64,000 nucleotides of DNA from contig CADEDJ010000009.1 of NCBI GenBank assembly GCA_902826055.1, positions 1 through 64,000 of the forward strand, read 5' to 3'. This document shows, one piece after another, positions 51,955 to 63,181 of the stretch. The DNA is from an uncultured Nitrosomonas sp. GTDB lineage: Bacteria > Pseudomonadota > Gammaproteobacteria > Burkholderiales > Nitrosomonadaceae. The notes below the pieces were generated by a model. The model was not told the origin of the DNA, ran no database searches, and saw nothing but the letters and a program-made list of their open reading frames with translations. Positions within the stretch are counted from its first letter, which is position 1. Each line of letters opens with the position of its first letter. The position numbers and the translations under genes are program-made.

Positions 51955-51990
51955 GACTGCTACAAAAACTGTAGTGTGTTATCGATCAAT

Positions 51991-53784
51991 ATGTGCAGCA
52001 ATTCTTTTTATTTACGATCATCATGCGTATATCTTGTGCTGATAAGCCTATTGATATGGCACGATGTTGCGCTGGCGTTGGCACAAGATTATTCCTGTGA
52101 AATCCCAAGCAAAACGCATATCTGGATTTCACCCTTGAATCCTACATCTGAAAAGCCCCTCAAAATCATGGCGGTATCAACCGATGGCGCAATAACAGAA
52201 TTAGTTCTGACCGACAGTCAAGGCCACCACATACCGCTCCAGTCACGCTACCGTGGTGGCCCGCCCTGGAGCATTTTAAGCGCGCTGCAAAAACTGGATG
52301 AAGGCCACTTTCAAGTAACCGCGAATCGCAACGGCGAAACAATTGCTTGTCACCAATTCACTGTTGGATCGACAGTAACCCAACCTGCACGCGGGAAATG
52401 GAATCTAGCCACAGAAGCCTTGTACGCCGCCTGGATTGAAGAGCTTTTTGGCGCACCGCACGAGGAAAATTTAAGCTTTGATTCATTAGAGCCTGTGTTA
52501 CGCAATCGTAAACGCAACTTTCTCTACAACTATCATGGCCGTAGTGAAGACAAGGATTTGCCGCTCACCCCTGATTGCGCCGATTTGCCCTATGCTTTGC
52601 GTGCTTATTTTGCCTGGAAAATGGGATTGCCCTTCGCTTATCGCACCTGCGGGCGCGGTTCGATCAAATCACCGCCGCAATGCGGCAATGCAACAATCAT
52701 GTCGGAATTCACACGCAATATCAGTACGCAAGCCAGCTTCAAGAAATTTAGCAGACTATTGGTGGACACTGTGCATTCCGGTTCACTACGAACCGGTTTC
52801 GAAGATGAATCGACGGACTGGTATCCCATCGCTTTTAACCGTGAAACATTATGGCCTGGAACTATCTACGCAGATCCTTATGGCCATGTTCTAGTTTTGG
52901 TCGAATGGATCCCTCAAACTATAGATCAGCCGGGCACACTGTTGGTTGTCGACGCTCAGCCGGACAATTCAATTGCACGTAAGCGAGTATGGGAAGGTAC
53001 CCTGCTGTATGACCATACTGAAAGTGCAGGACCTGGTTTTAAGAGCTTCCGACCTCTGACCCGTACAACTGCAGAAAAGTGGCGCGCACTGACCAATGAA
53101 GAGCTGACTGTTCAATCCGAATTTCTTCCTTTTTCGTTGGAACAAAGCCAACTCGCGCGCGAAAATTTTTATGCCAAGTTAGCCAAGCTGATCAACCCGC
53201 ATGGACTGAATCCCACGCAAGCTTATGAAGCGACATTGGATGCTTTGGTGGAACAACTTGTGACACGCGTAAACTCAGTGAAAAACGGAGAAGCTTATTT
53301 CCGCAAAAACCCGCGCGGCGTCATCCCAATGCCCAACAGAATGGCAATTTTTCAGACGGTTGGCCCATGGGAAGATTACTCCACACCTTCTCGGGATATG
53401 CGCTTACTTATTGCTATCAACGTACTGCAGAGTTTGCCCGAAAAAATAATCCGTTATCCCGAATTATTCGTATTAAACGGAAAAAGTCCGGAACAAGCTA
53501 AAATAGAAATCGAGCACCATCACAACAAGCGCATTCACGAACGCAGTATCGTTTACACACGTAGCGATGGTAGTACGTGGGAATTGTCTTTAGCTGAAAT
53601 ACTGGTACGCAAAACGGCTTATGAAATCGCTTATAACCCAAACGATTGCGCAGAAATCCGCTGGGGCGCCCAACCCGATACTGAGGAATATTCTACTTGC
53701 CGTCGCCAGGCACCAGCACAGCAACGAACAAAAATGGAACAATACCGTACATGGTTCCGCGAAACACAAAGACCGGCTTATTAA
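51991..53784 (+). CDS. Secreted protein with a putative Cys-His-Asp (transglutaminase/NlpC-like) core
   Basis: 597 residues from the ATG at 51991; a GTG five codons earlier is also possible. A signal peptide ends near residue 31 (DVALALA before QDYSCE). The middle has DCADLPYALRAYFAWKMGLPFAYR with Cys196, then DPYGHVLVLVEW with His299, and LLVVDAQPD with Asp321. This order and spacing fit a papain-fold hydrolase such as transglutaminase-like or NlpC/P60 proteins. The remaining 270 residues are helical and unassigned. I do not recognise the family. It follows nadB closely. A periplasmic peptidase or crosslinking role is only a hypothesis. Confidence 0.65.
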   Translation: MCSNSFYLRSSCVYLVLISLLIWHDVALALAQDYSCEIPSKTHIWISPLNPTSEKPLKIMAVSTDGAITELVLTDSQGHHIPLQSRYRGGPPWSILSALQKLDEGHFQVTANRNGETIACHQFTVGSTVTQPARGKWNLATEALYAAWIEELFGAPHEENLSFDSLEPVLRNRKRNFLYNYHGRSEDKDLPLTPDCADLPYALRAYFAWKMGLPFAYRTCGRGSIKSPPQCGNATIMSEFTRNISTQASFKKFSRLLVDTVHSGSLRTGFEDESTDWYPIAFNRETLWPGTIYADPYGHVLVLVEWIPQTIDQPGTLLVVDAQPDNSIARKRVWEGTLLYDHTESAGPGFKSFRPLTRTTAEKWRALTNEELTVQSEFLPFSLEQSQLARENFYAKLAKLINPHGLNPTQAYEATLDALVEQLVTRVNSVKNGEAYFRKNPRGVIPMPNRMAIFQTVGPWEDYSTPSRDMRLLIAINVLQSLPEKIIRYPELFVLNGKSPEQAKIEIEHHHNKRIHERSIVYTRSDGSTWELSLAEILVRKTAYEIAYNPNDCAEIRWGAQPDTEEYSTCRRQAPAQQRTKMEQYRTWFRETQRPAY

Positions 53785-54076: not shown

Positions 54077-54496
54077 ATGGAATTGAAAGGATCTAAAACC
54101 GAAGGAAATTTAAAAGCCGCTTTTGCGGGAGAATCTCAAGCTAACCGCCGCTATTTATATTTCGCGGCAAAAGCCGATGTGGAAGGACAAAATGATGTTG
54201 CAGCGGTATTCCGATCTACTGCAGAAGGTGAAACAGGTCACGCGCATGGTCATCTGGAATATTTGGAAAATTGCGGCGACCCAGCAACAGGCATGCCTTT
54301 TGGTTCTTCCCGCGACAACCTGAAAACCGCCATTGCAGGCGAAACACATGAATATACCGACATGTATCCAGGCATGGCAAAAATAGCTCGTGATGAAGGT
54401 TTTGATGAAATTTCCGACTGGTTCGAAACGCTTGCAAAAGCAGAACGTTCTCACGCCAACCGTTTTCAGCGCGCACTGGACAGCTTGACTGATTAG
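54077..54496 (+). CDS. rbr: Rubrerythrin-like diiron protein without rubredoxin domain
   Basis: 139 residues from the ATG at 54077, with AAGGAG seven nt before it. A four-helix ferritin-like fold has the diiron ligands in [37 protein letters not shown] and [10 protein letters not shown]. The usual C-terminal rubredoxin CXXC pairs are absent; only one cysteine occurs. It probably reduces peroxide with electrons from a partner, perhaps the Fe-S protein encoded next. A hairpin follows. Confidence 0.9.
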
Positions 54497-54587: not shown

Positions 54588-56576
54588 ATGCCTATTCGTG
54601 AAGGTAGCCTAGAAGCCCCTAAACGCCACCCAATTGACTGGAAGAATCCAGATTTTTATAACGAAGCCAGCCTGACTCAGGAAATGGAGCGGGTTTTCGA
54701 CATCTGCCACGGCTGCCGGCGCTGTGTCAATTTGTGCACTGCTTTTCCGCGCTTATTCGATCTCATTGACGAAAGCTCGACCGGTGAACTTGATGGCGTC
54801 AATAAAAATCAATTTGCAGAAGTCGTGGATCATTGTTATCTCTGCGACATGTGTTTCATGACCAAGTGCCCTTATGTACCGCCGCATGAATGGAACATCG
54901 ACTTTCCGCATCTGATGTTACGTGCCAAGGCGGTGAAATATAAAAACAAGGGTGCCGGGTTTCGAGATAAGCTGTTATCCAGTACCGATTTGATGGGTAA
55001 ATTGGCCACCATTCCCGTTATCGTACAAACCGTTAATGCCGTCAACAAGACGCCAGCCACACGCAAATTAATGAATAGCATGTTAGGAATCCATGCTGAT
55101 AGAAAGCTGCCTGAATACAGCGCGAATAAATTTCGTGCAAACGCAAGACTCAACGCTACTTTTGCCGTCGTGAATGGCGCCAAGACACCGGGCAAAGTTG
55201 CGATTTATGCCACTTGCTATATTAATTATAACGAACCAGGTATCGGTCACGATTTGTTAACGATACTGGAACACAACGAAATTCCCGCTTGCCTGGTGGA
55301 AAACGAAGCCTGTTGCGGCATGCCGAAGCTCGAACTGGGTGATTTGGAAGCAGTGGAAGCATTGAAAAACAAAAATATCCCGCCATTGCTAAAATTGGCA
55401 CAGGAAGGCTACGCCATCATTTCCGCAGTACCATCCTGTACATTGATGTACAAACAAGAATTGCCGCTCCTGTTTCCACATGATGAAGCGGTTCACACTG
55501 TGGCTGCCGCGATGTTTGATCCATTCGAGTATTTATCTTTGCGCAACCAGGACAACCTGCTCAAAACTGATTTTAAAAAATCATTGGGCAATGTGGCATA
55601 CCATATCCCATGCCATCAGCGTGTGCAAAACATCGGAAAAAAAACGCGTGACATTTTGCAGCTTATCCCGGACACCACTATCCATACGGTGGAGCGATGT
55701 TCAGGCCATGATGGAACTTGGGGCGTGAAAAGTGAATTCTTTGCCGATTCCATGAAAATCGGCCGTCCGGTTTTCAAGCAAATGGCTGCTGCGAACCCGG
55801 ATTACATCAGTTCCGATTGTGCAATTGCCGCACGGCATATTGAACAAGGTATCGGTGAAAGCAAGGCCAAAAAATCACACCCGCTCACTTTATTACGTAT
55901 GGCTTATGGTGACTACGTTGAGCAAGGAACGCACATTGACCATAGTCAACCAACCGTTTCCGCCACTTCATTGGACGAAAAAAACATGGCACCCATTACT
56001 CGTGACAACCTGCTGACATTAGAAGCGTATGCCAAGATACGTAACGATTTTCGTACTCAAGTCATGGCGCATAAAAAAACGCGTAAAATCTCATTGGGAG
56101 AGAATATCACGCTGATTTTTGAAGATGCGCTGACAATACGTTACCAAATTCAGGAAATGCTCCATGTCGAACGCATCTTCCAAGAACAAGAAATCATACA
56201 TGAATTTGAAACCTATGCACCGTTAGTACCGGATGGCAGCAATTGGAAAGCCACCATGATGATCGAATACCCTGATCCGGCAATACGTGCAGCCAAGCTT
56301 GCCACCATGGTAGGCATTGAAGACAAAGTATGGATTAAAATTGGCGGGCATGCACCCGTTTATGCGATCGCCGATGAAGACTTAGAGCGGGAAAATAAAG
56401 AAAAAACCTCATCAGTTCATTTTCTGCGCTTTGAACTTAGCGCGGAAATGATTCAATCCCTGCGTCAGGGCGCTTCCCTCAGTATGGGTGTGGATCATCA
56501 AGCTTATCAAGCAAATATTGATATTACCGATGCCAGCATTCGAGACTCATTATTAAATGACTTAACCATTAAATGA
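54588..56576 (+). CDS. Fe-S oxidoreductase (CCG domain) fused to DUF3501
   Basis: 662 residues. Two ferredoxin-type clusters are set by Cys40/43/46/50 and Cys83/86/89/94. A GlpC/HdrB-like part follows with CCG-type motifs (ENEACCGMP near residue 240; SDCAIAARHI near 410). After a linker at about 445-466, the C-terminal 196 residues (from MAPITRDNLL) match DUF3501 in style. In related bacteria, as I recall, these are separate adjacent genes after rubrerythrin. It is likely an electron-transfer partner of the rubrerythrin in peroxide defence. The next gene overlaps it by 4 nt. Confidence 0.85.
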   Translation: MPIREGSLEAPKRHPIDWKNPDFYNEASLTQEMERVFDICHGCRRCVNLCTAFPRLFDLIDESSTGELDGVNKNQFAEVVDHCYLCDMCFMTKCPYVPPHEWNIDFPHLMLRAKAVKYKNKGAGFRDKLLSSTDLMGKLATIPVIVQTVNAVNKTPATRKLMNSMLGIHADRKLPEYSANKFRANARLNATFAVVNGAKTPGKVAIYATCYINYNEPGIGHDLLTILEHNEIPACLVENEACCGMPKLELGDLEAVEALKNKNIPPLLKLAQEGYAIISAVPSCTLMYKQELPLLFPHDEAVHTVAAAMFDPFEYLSLRNQDNLLKTDFKKSLGNVAYHIPCHQRVQNIGKKTRDILQLIPDTTIHTVERCSGHDGTWGVKSEFFADSMKIGRPVFKQMAAANPDYISSDCAIAARHIEQGIGESKAKKSHPLTLLRMAYGDYVEQGTHIDHSQPTVSATSLDEKNMAPITRDNLLTLEAYAKIRNDFRTQVMAHKKTRKISLGENITLIFEDALTIRYQIQEMLHVERIFQEQEIIHEFETYAPLVPDGSNWKATMMIEYPDPAIRAAKLATMVGIEDKVWIKIGGHAPVYAIADEDLERENKEKTSSVHFLRFELSAEMIQSLRQGASLSMGVDHQAYQANIDITDASIRDSLLNDLTIK

Positions 56577-57085
56577 GACGAACGCTAGTTACTCTGGCTT
56601 GTGTCTTATTTTTGCTTGCCTGCGCCAAACCGCCATTCAAAGATGAATTCGAAAGCGACAAGCCTTGGATTGAGCAAATGACACAATTGCCTGCTTATCC
56701 GGATGCAAAAAATCTACTGGCATTTGATGCAGGTGCTACTACCAGTAATCAATACATGGTCGATACAACTTCGATCAAAATTGGTGGCGATGGCGTCATT
56801 CGCTTTAGCCTCATAATCAAATCACCTAATGGCGCCGAAAATGTCAGTTACGAAGGCATACGCTGCGCCACCAACGAAAGAAAAATATACGCACTCGGAA
56901 GAAATGATAAAACGTGGGCACAACCACGCATATCCGAATGGCAAAAGCTCGATTTTGTCCGGCAATTTTATGCACAACGGGAGCTTTCCAAAAACATCTT
57001 TTGCCCGCACCGGCAAATTGTCAGTGATAGCGAAGAAGCAGTACAAGCATTAAAGGCAGGCATGCACCGAAGCATCATCCGTTAA
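56573..57085 (+). CDS. CNP1-like family lipoprotein
   Basis: 170 residues. A lipoprotein signal (MRRTLVTLACVLFLLAC, lipobox Cys17) is followed by FKDEFESDKPWIEQMTQLPAYPDAKNLLAF and SYEGIRCATNERKIYALGRNDKTWAQPRISEW, the pattern of CNP1-like proteins. Function unknown. Its ATG overlaps the stop of the Fe-S/DUF3501 gene, so translation is coupled. Confidence 0.85.
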   Translation: MRRTLVTLACVLFLLACAKPPFKDEFESDKPWIEQMTQLPAYPDAKNLLAFDAGATTSNQYMVDTTSIKIGGDGVIRFSLIIKSPNGAENVSYEGIRCATNERKIYALGRNDKTWAQPRISEWQKLDFVRQFYAQRELSKNIFCPHRQIVSDSEEAVQALKAGMHRSIIR

Positions 57086-60879: not shown

Positions 60880-61830
60880 ATGAAACTTATAGCATTAATA
60901 TTATCGCTGCCCACTGAAAATGCCACTGTGCGTATGCGTGCATGGCGGACTTTGAAGGCTTCTGGTGCCGCAGTATTACGCGATGGGGTGTATTTAATGC
61001 CCGATCAGGAGCCTTGCCGCAGCACATTGCGTATGATTGCTTCCGATGTGCAAGCAAGTGGCGGCAATGCTTATATACTGCACATGGATGAATCCGATGA
61101 TAGCGATTTCATCCATTTATTTGACCGCAGCGAAGGCTACACCCGATTACTGGCTGAAATCGTTGATTCCCGCAGTAACTTAACAAGCAATACCGCGCCA
61201 GAAAAACTCAAGCAAGTACGCAAGTTACGAAAAACATACGCAAATCTTGCCGCTATCGATTTTTTCCCTAGTACCCATCAACAGCAAGTTGATAGCGAAT
61301 TGCAAGAATTGGAACTAATGATCACACAAGCACTGACACCTGATGAACCTCATGCGATCAATAGCAATACGATAACTCACCTTCAGCTCAATGACTTCCA
61401 AGGTATGACATGGGCAACCCGCCGCCGTCCGTGGGTAGACCGCTTGGCTAGTGCATGGCTAATACGTAATTTTATTGACCAAAAAGCCAAATTTCTGTGG
61501 CTGCAATCGCCATTAGATTGCCCAGCCAATGCTTTGGGATTCGATTTTGACGGTGCAGCATTTACTCATGTCGGCCATCGCGTTACGTTCGAAGTGCTAC
61601 TAGAAAGCTTCGAATTGCAACAGCCCGGATTGAAACACCTCGGTGCTTTGGTACATTGCCTGGATGTTGGCGGCATACAGTTGCCCGAAGCTATTGGCAT
61701 TGAAAGCGTGTTATCAGGACTACGCACCGCCATTGCCGACGATGATCAACTTTTAACTACAGCAAGCGTCGTGTTTGATGGTTTGCTGCAAACTTTTTCA
61801 CAAGGAACTGTGAACCATGAATCAACCTGA
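60880..61830 (+). CDS. chrB: Chromate resistance regulator ChrB
   Basis: 316 residues. The N-terminus (LSLPTENATVRMRAWRTLK, GAAVLRDGVYLMP) is the typical ChrB DNA-binding-like start, and the C-terminal half (TWATRRRPWVDRLASAWLIRNFID, FDFDGAAFTHVGHRVTFEVLLESF) is the chromate-resistance domain. In known systems ChrB senses chromate and controls chrA. The ATG at 60880 gives the full conserved start despite lacking a ribosome site. It overlaps chrA by 14 nt. Confidence 0.93.
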   Translation: MKLIALILSLPTENATVRMRAWRTLKASGAAVLRDGVYLMPDQEPCRSTLRMIASDVQASGGNAYILHMDESDDSDFIHLFDRSEGYTRLLAEIVDSRSNLTSNTAPEKLKQVRKLRKTYANLAAIDFFPSTHQQQVDSELQELELMITQALTPDEPHAINSNTITHLQLNDFQGMTWATRRRPWVDRLASAWLIRNFIDQKAKFLWLQSPLDCPANALGFDFDGAAFTHVGHRVTFEVLLESFELQQPGLKHLGALVHCLDVGGIQLPEAIGIESVLSGLRTAIADDDQLLTTASVVFDGLLQTFSQGTVNHEST

Positions 61831-63181
61831 AACCTCACCACTTGAAACAACAAGCAGTCAAGCGCCCTCAGTCAGTTTCTGGCAGGCATTTTTATTTTGG
61901 CTCAAGCTTGGGTTTATTAGTTTTGGCGGGCCTGCAGGACAAATTTCCATCATGCATCAAGAGTTGGTAGTTAACCGCCGCTGGATTTCCGAAAGGCGTT
62001 TTTTACATGCACTCAATTATTGTATGGTGCTGCCAGGACCGGAAGCACAGCAGTTAGCCACCTATATCGGCTGGTTGATGCATCGCACCTGGGGCGGAAT
62101 CGTCGCCGGTGCACTGTTCGTATTGCCATCGCTTGTCATCTTAATTGTGTTGTCATGGATTTATATTTCCTTTGGTGACGTGCCTTTCATAGCCGGTCTA
62201 TTTTATGGTATCAAGCCAGCAGTAACAGCAATTGTAGTACAGGCGGCTCATCGCATTGGCTCCCGGGCATTGAAAAATAACGTGCTGTGGGCAATTGCAG
62301 CCGCGTCGTTTGTCGCGATTTTTGCATTACACATACCATTCCCACTGATCGTAATAGCCGCTGCATTGATCGGTTTTGTGGGTGGTCGCATGGCACCGGA
62401 AAAATTCAGAACTGGTGGTGGCCATGGCACAGTTAAGGAATCTTTTGGTCCGGCTTTGATCGACGATAATACGCCACCACCAGATTATACTCAGCACCGC
62501 TGGTCAAGATTGGCAAAAATAGCAGCTATCGGCGGCCTACTTTGGGCCATTCCAATAGGACTGCTCAACGCCACTTATGGTTGGGATCATACGTTGACGC
62601 AAATGAGCTGGTTTTTCACTAAAGCAGCATTAGTAACTTTTGGAGGTGCGTACGCGGTACTGCCTTATCTGTATCAGGGTGCGGTCGAATACTATAATTG
62701 GCTCACCCCCGAACAAATGATCGACGGTTTGGCATTGGGAGAAACGACACCCGGCCCGCTGATAATGGTGGTTGCATTCGTTGGTTTTATAGGCGGTTAT
62801 GTCAAAGCTGTGTTTGGACCGGAAGCGGTATTTCTTGCAGGTACGATCGCCGCTTGCTTAGTGACTTGGTTCACTTTTTTACCATCTTTCATTTTCATCC
62901 TAATGGGCGGCCCGTTGGTAGAGTCTACGCACAATGACTTGAAATTTACCGCACCGCTAACTGCGATCACTGCAGCTGTTGTTGGCGTAATTCTGAATCT
63001 GGCATTGTTTTTTGGCTATCACGTACTATGGCCTGATGGCTTTGGCGGCACATTCGATTGGATTTCAGCGCTGATTTCGCTCGCTGCCACGATAGCATTG
63101 TTCAAATTTAAACTCGGTGTCATTCAAGTCATCGCGGCCAGCGCTATGGTTGGATTGATGGTAAAAACCTTGATTGTGTAA
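61817..63181 (+). CDS. chrA: Chromate efflux transporter ChrA
   Basis: 454-residue CHR-family inner membrane protein made of two homologous halves. Half one has FWLKLGFISFGGPAGQISIMH and YCMVLPGPEAQQLATYIGWLMH; half two repeats the pattern with TKAALVTFGGAYAVLPYLYQG and LALGETTPGPLIMVVAFVGFIGGY. A long cytoplasmic linker lies near residues 195-225. It exports chromate. Its start lies within the 3' end of chrB, so expression is coupled. Confidence 0.95.
   Translation: MNQPETSPLETTSSQAPSVSFWQAFLFWLKLGFISFGGPAGQISIMHQELVVNRRWISERRFLHALNYCMVLPGPEAQQLATYIGWLMHRTWGGIVAGALFVLPSLVILIVLSWIYISFGDVPFIAGLFYGIKPAVTAIVVQAAHRIGSRALKNNVLWAIAAASFVAIFALHIPFPLIVIAAALIGFVGGRMAPEKFRTGGGHGTVKESFGPALIDDNTPPPDYTQHRWSRLAKIAAIGGLLWAIPIGLLNATYGWDHTLTQMSWFFTKAALVTFGGAYAVLPYLYQGAVEYYNWLTPEQMIDGLALGETTPGPLIMVVAFVGFIGGYVKAVFGPEAVFLAGTIAACLVTWFTFLPSFIFILMGGPLVESTHNDLKFTAPLTAITAAVVGVILNLALFFGYHVLWPDGFGGTFDWISALISLAATIALFKFKLGVIQVIAASAMVGLMVKTLIV

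Follow-up and report, generated by a model that had tools for sequence, protein, structure and literature searches.

A labile fusion of an Fe-S protein to DUF3501 in the rubrerythrin module of Nitrosomonas

Introduction

Peroxide reduction is the chemistry associated with rubrerythrins. This chemistry is summarized in part of PMC7760498. In the sections of a 2016 paper that deal with the aerobic type of rubrerythrin (PMC5114695), a rubrerythrin (RBR) without rubredoxin is described, together with its neighbours, a DUF3501 protein and a COG0247 protein named RFO, and the co-occurrence of the three. The same sections have had the fusion of RFO and DUF3501 in one gene in print since 2016 ('e.g., Nitrosomonas spp.'), propose that RFO compensates for the rubredoxin domain absent from RBR, and record that Thermoproteales have RBR and DUF3501, with RFO absent. 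The fusion, the cluster and the proposed role are, therefore, already known.

According to the relevant parts of PMC5960693, rubrerythrin accounts for 1.22% of the proteome in N. ureae and is missing from N. europaea. The absence in N. europaea agrees with our own survey, in which 16 genomes of the genus had neither RBR, DUF3501 nor RFO. DUF3501 is also reported from some protists, with mitochondrial targeting predicted, in the part of PMC7050145 that treats it. Our literature search found no experiment on the function of RFO or DUF3501.

The fusion gene and its neighbours

The window, meaning the whole stretch of DNA that we analysed, comprises 64,000 nt from an uncultured Nitrosomonas sp., an ammonia-oxidizing bacterium (GCA_902826055.1, contig CADEDJ010000009.1, positions 1 to 64,000, forward strand). 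The features of its rubrerythrin locus are as follows.

54077..54496, + strand: RBR, a rubredoxin-less rubrerythrin of 139 aa (PF02915, 100 bits), upstream of the fusion gene
54588..56576, + strand: RFO-DUF3501 fusion gene, 662 aa in a single open frame, with Pfam CCG and DUF3501 domains
54588..55910, + strand: RFO part, residues 1-441, with two 4Fe-4S-type motifs and two CCG domains
55911..55985, + strand: linker, residues 442-466, predicted by the model to be disordered and the site of the break in aligned split relatives
55986..56576, + strand: DUF3501 part, residues 467-662, starting at an ATG, with PF12007 at residues 470-659
56573..57085, + strand: CNP1-like protein (PF08750, 153 bits), downstream, with an ATGA overlap with the end of the fusion gene

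A sequence-only reading of this DNA had proposed that an Fe-S protein is joined to a complete DUF3501 domain in one ORF, and the 662-residue open frame bears this out. Both domains scored above their Pfam cut-offs: CCG (PF02754) at 47.2 bits against 20.6, in two stretches, and DUF3501 (PF12007) at 243.1 bits against 25, covering positions 2-187 of the 187 in the profile, and hence complete. The DUF3501 part contains no cysteine, and the ATG that opens it aligns with the start codon of separate DUF3501 genes. Mean pLDDT was 80.6 for the model of the full-length protein, falling below 50 at residues 444-468, which points to a disordered linker, and was 90.5 for DUF3501 modelled alone. The nearest relatives of the fusion in a search of named genomes were from Nitrosomonas, the top one at 91%, and PADLOC returned no match to the fusion protein.

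The RFO part carries two CxxCxxCxxxC motifs (C40-C50 and C83-C94), a first CCG domain at 204-287 (C210, C242-C243 and C284) and a degenerate second one (C342, C371 and C411). The full CCG motif is defined by five cysteines and ends in CxxC; it was found in neither copy, as the first reads C210, C242, C243, C284 and then xxM, and the second reads CSG at 371-373. The motif and CCG cysteines were invariant across 57 aligned rows. Alignment A4 comprised 54 rows, namely the window, all 11 of the 11 fused proteins and 42 of the 69 separate RFO proteins.

RBR aligned with the NCBIfam rubrerythrin model over positions 3-144 alone, out of 194, and scored 130 bits, below the cut-off of 200; since the match stops at position 144, the protein lacks the C-terminal rubredoxin part. 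A rubredoxin-less RBR adjoining both partners, a complete DUF3501 and a GlpC-related CCG Fe-S protein are all found here; judged by these sequence features, the locus corresponds to the aerobic-type rubrerythrin module already described, present in this Nitrosomonas as the fused variant.

The CNP1-like gene is probably carried on the same transcript as the fusion gene, to judge by their arrangement. Among the 80 best loci from named genomes, a relative followed DUF3501 within 700 bases in 27 and lay elsewhere in 6; none was found in 43 loci with enough DNA, and 4 had too little. The CNP1-like gene may belong to the operon as its fourth member. Two further observations concern the surrounding DNA. 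A 602-residue ORF just upstream of RBR (51976-53784) had no hit in either Pfam (threshold E 1) or NCBIfam (threshold 0.01), and a gene for a ChrB-like protein is followed by an overlapping chromate transporter gene at 60880-63181.

Distribution of fused and split forms

Open frames containing DUF3501 matches in the genus fell into 46 fused, 23 short and 2 contig-end pieces. The short frames adjoined a separate RFO in 22 cases and lacked RFO in one (genome G013), giving 68 loci with both partners, 46 of them fused and 22 split. Two of the fused loci (G028 and G085) are truncated where their contigs stop, and nine come from genomes of one or two contigs. In the three other genera of the family, 0 of 37 matches were fused, and none lay in an open frame longer than 258 aa.

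Further afield, at least 160 of 369 genomes of the class had DUF3501 among the matches listed. Ten places in the class with long open frames (279-715 aa) were fetched, and in 10/10 RFO and DUF3501 lay in different frames, so that none is fused. In the phylum, 25 of 398 genomes had DUF3501; outside the genus no frame exceeded 509 aa, a length that cannot accommodate the full fusion. Among the frames examined in the family, class and phylum, we found no DUF3501-RFO fusion outside the genus. Separate neighbouring genes had been put forward as the usual arrangement, and this view was upheld by the named genomes, in which just 11 of the 80 best loci were fused (10 titled Nitrosomonas and one Nitrosomonadaceae), even though that list was ranked by similarity to the fusion protein and is biased toward fused forms. 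The fusion is evidently not universal.

An artefact of sequencing or assembly could be suspected, since small changes in the linker separate split relatives from fused ones. Against it stand the 46 fused loci, whose linkers vary in sequence and length, and the nine among them from genomes of one or two contigs; independent genomes already refute an artefact, and we regard it as vanishingly improbable.

Repeated switching between fused and split states

A careful two-protein tree with an outgroup placed 9 changes between fused and split states, at least 7 of them forced by well-supported branches. For the genus rows alone, the best tree had 8 changes, at least 6 forced, with 7-8 across bootstraps. 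In none of the 200 bootstrap trees was one change of state enough. These counts do not distinguish gain from loss of fusion. The careful tree comprised 73 of 75 rows, namely 44 fused and 22 split rows from the genus and 7 outgroup rows, the latter from the 37 matches in other genera. All trees leave out G072, in which DUF3501 lies in two contig-end pieces, and G013, which has no RFO; the careful tree also leaves out L101 and L133, in which RFO is partial.

In four aligned groups of close relatives, the difference between split and fused was a stop codon or small indels within the linker. G082, a near relative of the window (94% for RFO, 89% for DUF3501), has the split form, and its fusion-matched region contains two stops. 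These observations would fit a process in which neighbouring genes of one cluster became joined; with a disordered linker between them, both halves would work as before, and the join would be close to neutral and repeatedly made and broken. The fusion is compatible with the mechanism proposed for the module, but adds little proof of it because it has been made and broken so often. Taken alone, the fusion reveals little about the way its parts function.

We also considered whether neighbours already in frame could easily become fused. In named genomes, RFO and DUF3501 shared a frame in 63 of 69 separate pairs, but that list was ranked with the fused protein and is biased toward in-frame pairs. 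We dropped the idea because the fetched family loci gave 5/22 in the genus and 3/7 outside it, no excess above chance.

An internal start for DUF3501

An ATG is retained at the DUF3501 start in 41 of the 46 fused loci. The other five form one clade, in which L099 has GTG and the remaining four (L101, L116, L123 and L124) no longer have any start codon where DUF3501 begins, which probably makes the fusion obligatory in these four. A Shine-Dalgarno match of at least 4 bases precedes the DUF3501 ATG in 19/41 fused and 8/22 split loci. In the control set, made up of all other internal ATGs in the fused genes, 105 of 889 have such a match. Because the loci are related, their counts lack independence. 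At the DUF3501 ATG of the window, the match is only 3 bases long.

With the old start codon surviving, a fused gene may still give a separate DUF3501. We tentatively raise the possibility, which we think rather unlikely, that most fused Nitrosomonas loci yield two products, the RFO-DUF3501 fusion and a free DUF3501, the latter serving RBR. If true, a free DUF3501 serving RBR would explain both the near-neutral fusion and fission and the survival of DUF3501 where RFO has been lost.

RBR or RFO as the partner of DUF3501

The 125 family genomes divide identically for RBR and DUF3501: 106 have both and 19 have neither. Together with the 139-residue RBR directly upstream of the fusion gene, this confirms the earlier suggestion of a link with a rubredoxin-less rubrerythrin. 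RFO is found in 105 of the 106 genomes. This count excludes G108, which has neither RBR nor DUF3501 and gives only a distant RFO match (1e-10).

The exception is G013 (locus L140, G013:C1:2088287-2092209), which has an intact RBR and DUF3501 and, between them, fragments that we read by eye as a decayed RFO. No RFO was found elsewhere in the G013 genome. Alignment A1, which consists of the window and 61 of the 69 separate DUF3501 proteins, has 30 invariant residues, and 29 of them are retained in the DUF3501 of G013. Loss of RFO within the family is seen in a single genome, and the evidence is accordingly thin, but it is in line with the RFO-less RBR-DUF3501 pairs described in the module sections of PMC5114695.

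The sequence-only reading had taken the fusion as an argument that DUF3501 works directly with the Fe-S protein. This argument was weakened by the switching, at least 6 times within the genus, by the position of the breaks in the linker of the four aligned groups, and by the RFO-less G013. A stronger version sees DUF3501 mainly as a subunit or partner of the Fe-S protein and attributes the fusion to selection for a complex of fixed 1:1 stoichiometry. The excess of fused over split loci in the genus, the presence of RFO alongside DUF3501 in 105/106 genomes and the clade of five fused loci without the DUF3501 ATG, four of which probably rely on the fusion, all speak for it; the same switching, the retention of DUF3501 in G013, the Thermoproteales with RBR and DUF3501 and without RFO in the published account (PMC5114695), and the lack of any fusion outside the genus among the frames examined speak against it. 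We consider this explanation doubtful. Because of the switching, G013 and the RFO-less Thermoproteales of that account, RBR appears at least as good a partner for DUF3501 as RFO.

Within the DUF3501 part, one conserved element attracted our attention.

56376..56429, + strand: loop and following strand, DUF3501 residues 131-148, conserved and probably mobile

E131, D132, R135, K140, T141, V144, H145, F146 and R148 of DUF3501 were invariant in 62 rows. Residues 131-140 had a mean pLDDT of 56, although they belong to a most conserved stretch. The modelled mobility and the conservation make residues 131-148 a possible docking element.

Such residues might also be read differently, with DUF3501 as a maturation factor of RBR, for example a chaperone or a di-iron loading factor, and RFO as a separate reductase. 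The conserved acidic residues and H145 in a domain that lacks cysteine in the window, the exact co-occurrence of RBR and DUF3501 across 125 genomes and the persistence of DUF3501 without RFO in G013 are in line with this possibility, which leaves the repeated fusion to RFO unexplained; we hold it to be somewhat improbable, though less so than a fixed complex with RFO.

Proposed mechanism

Taking the evidence together, we lean slightly towards a reading in which the locus is the known module, RFO is the electron donor, DUF3501 is a docking or assembly factor and the fusion is near neutral. By analogy with rubrerythrin chemistry, RBR would reduce peroxide at its di-iron site. RFO would stand in for the missing rubredoxin domain, with electrons passing through its Fe-S clusters. 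As a guess by elimination, DUF3501, which has no cysteine and no recognized cofactor site, may act as a docking or assembly factor on RBR, bringing RFO and RBR together, perhaps via the conserved mobile loop. RFO cannot be the sole source of electrons, because the Thermoproteales of the module account (PMC5114695) and G013 are without it. As a counterpoint, fusion in 46 of the 68 two-partner loci of the genus could reflect selection for joint action. The switching between fused and split forms and the RFO-less G013 offer natural comparisons for asking whether the conserved DUF3501 serves RBR or RFO.

Comparison with known systems

The nearest annotated family to the RFO part is GlpC, the anaerobic glycerol-3-phosphate dehydrogenase subunit C, with 237.1 and 177.5 bits in NCBIfam, both under the equivalog cut-offs (278 and 279.9, respectively). 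A sequence search at E 0.001 found no relative of the RFO half in the PDB. LutA, mycobacterial EtfD and HdrB have folds like that of the RFO part (Foldseek E 3e-8 to 1e-5), at just 13-20% identity. The alignments with HdrB and LutA cover about 250-290 columns, the LutA structure used for comparison being an integrative model, and that with EtfD spans 535 columns, but with a low TM-score (0.37-0.41).

For DUF3501, a Burkholderia pseudomallei crystal structure (3FJV) was recovered both by sequence search and by fold search, with 54-55% identity over 190-193 residues, and Z 26.9 and rmsd 1.4 over 190 residues against our model. Chain B of 3FJV has 177 residues, compared with 193 in chain A. The protein stands alone and its function is unassigned, whereas the DUF3501 of the window is fused to RFO. 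The fold search gave no outstanding match besides 3FJV. CrdA, the second-best match, was considered as a clue to DUF3501 function and set aside, since its scores (Z 6.9 over 93 residues, rmsd 3.1) are in a range common for the tool.

The closest system as a whole is the aerobic-type RBR-DUF3501-RFO module of PMC5114695, whose three parts lie side by side in the window, and from which, as that module is described there, the locus shows no essential difference. To that description our analysis adds that the fusion is neither an artefact nor universal, that its state is labile within the genus, that RFO has been lost in one member, and that the tie of DUF3501 to RBR is no weaker than its tie to RFO.
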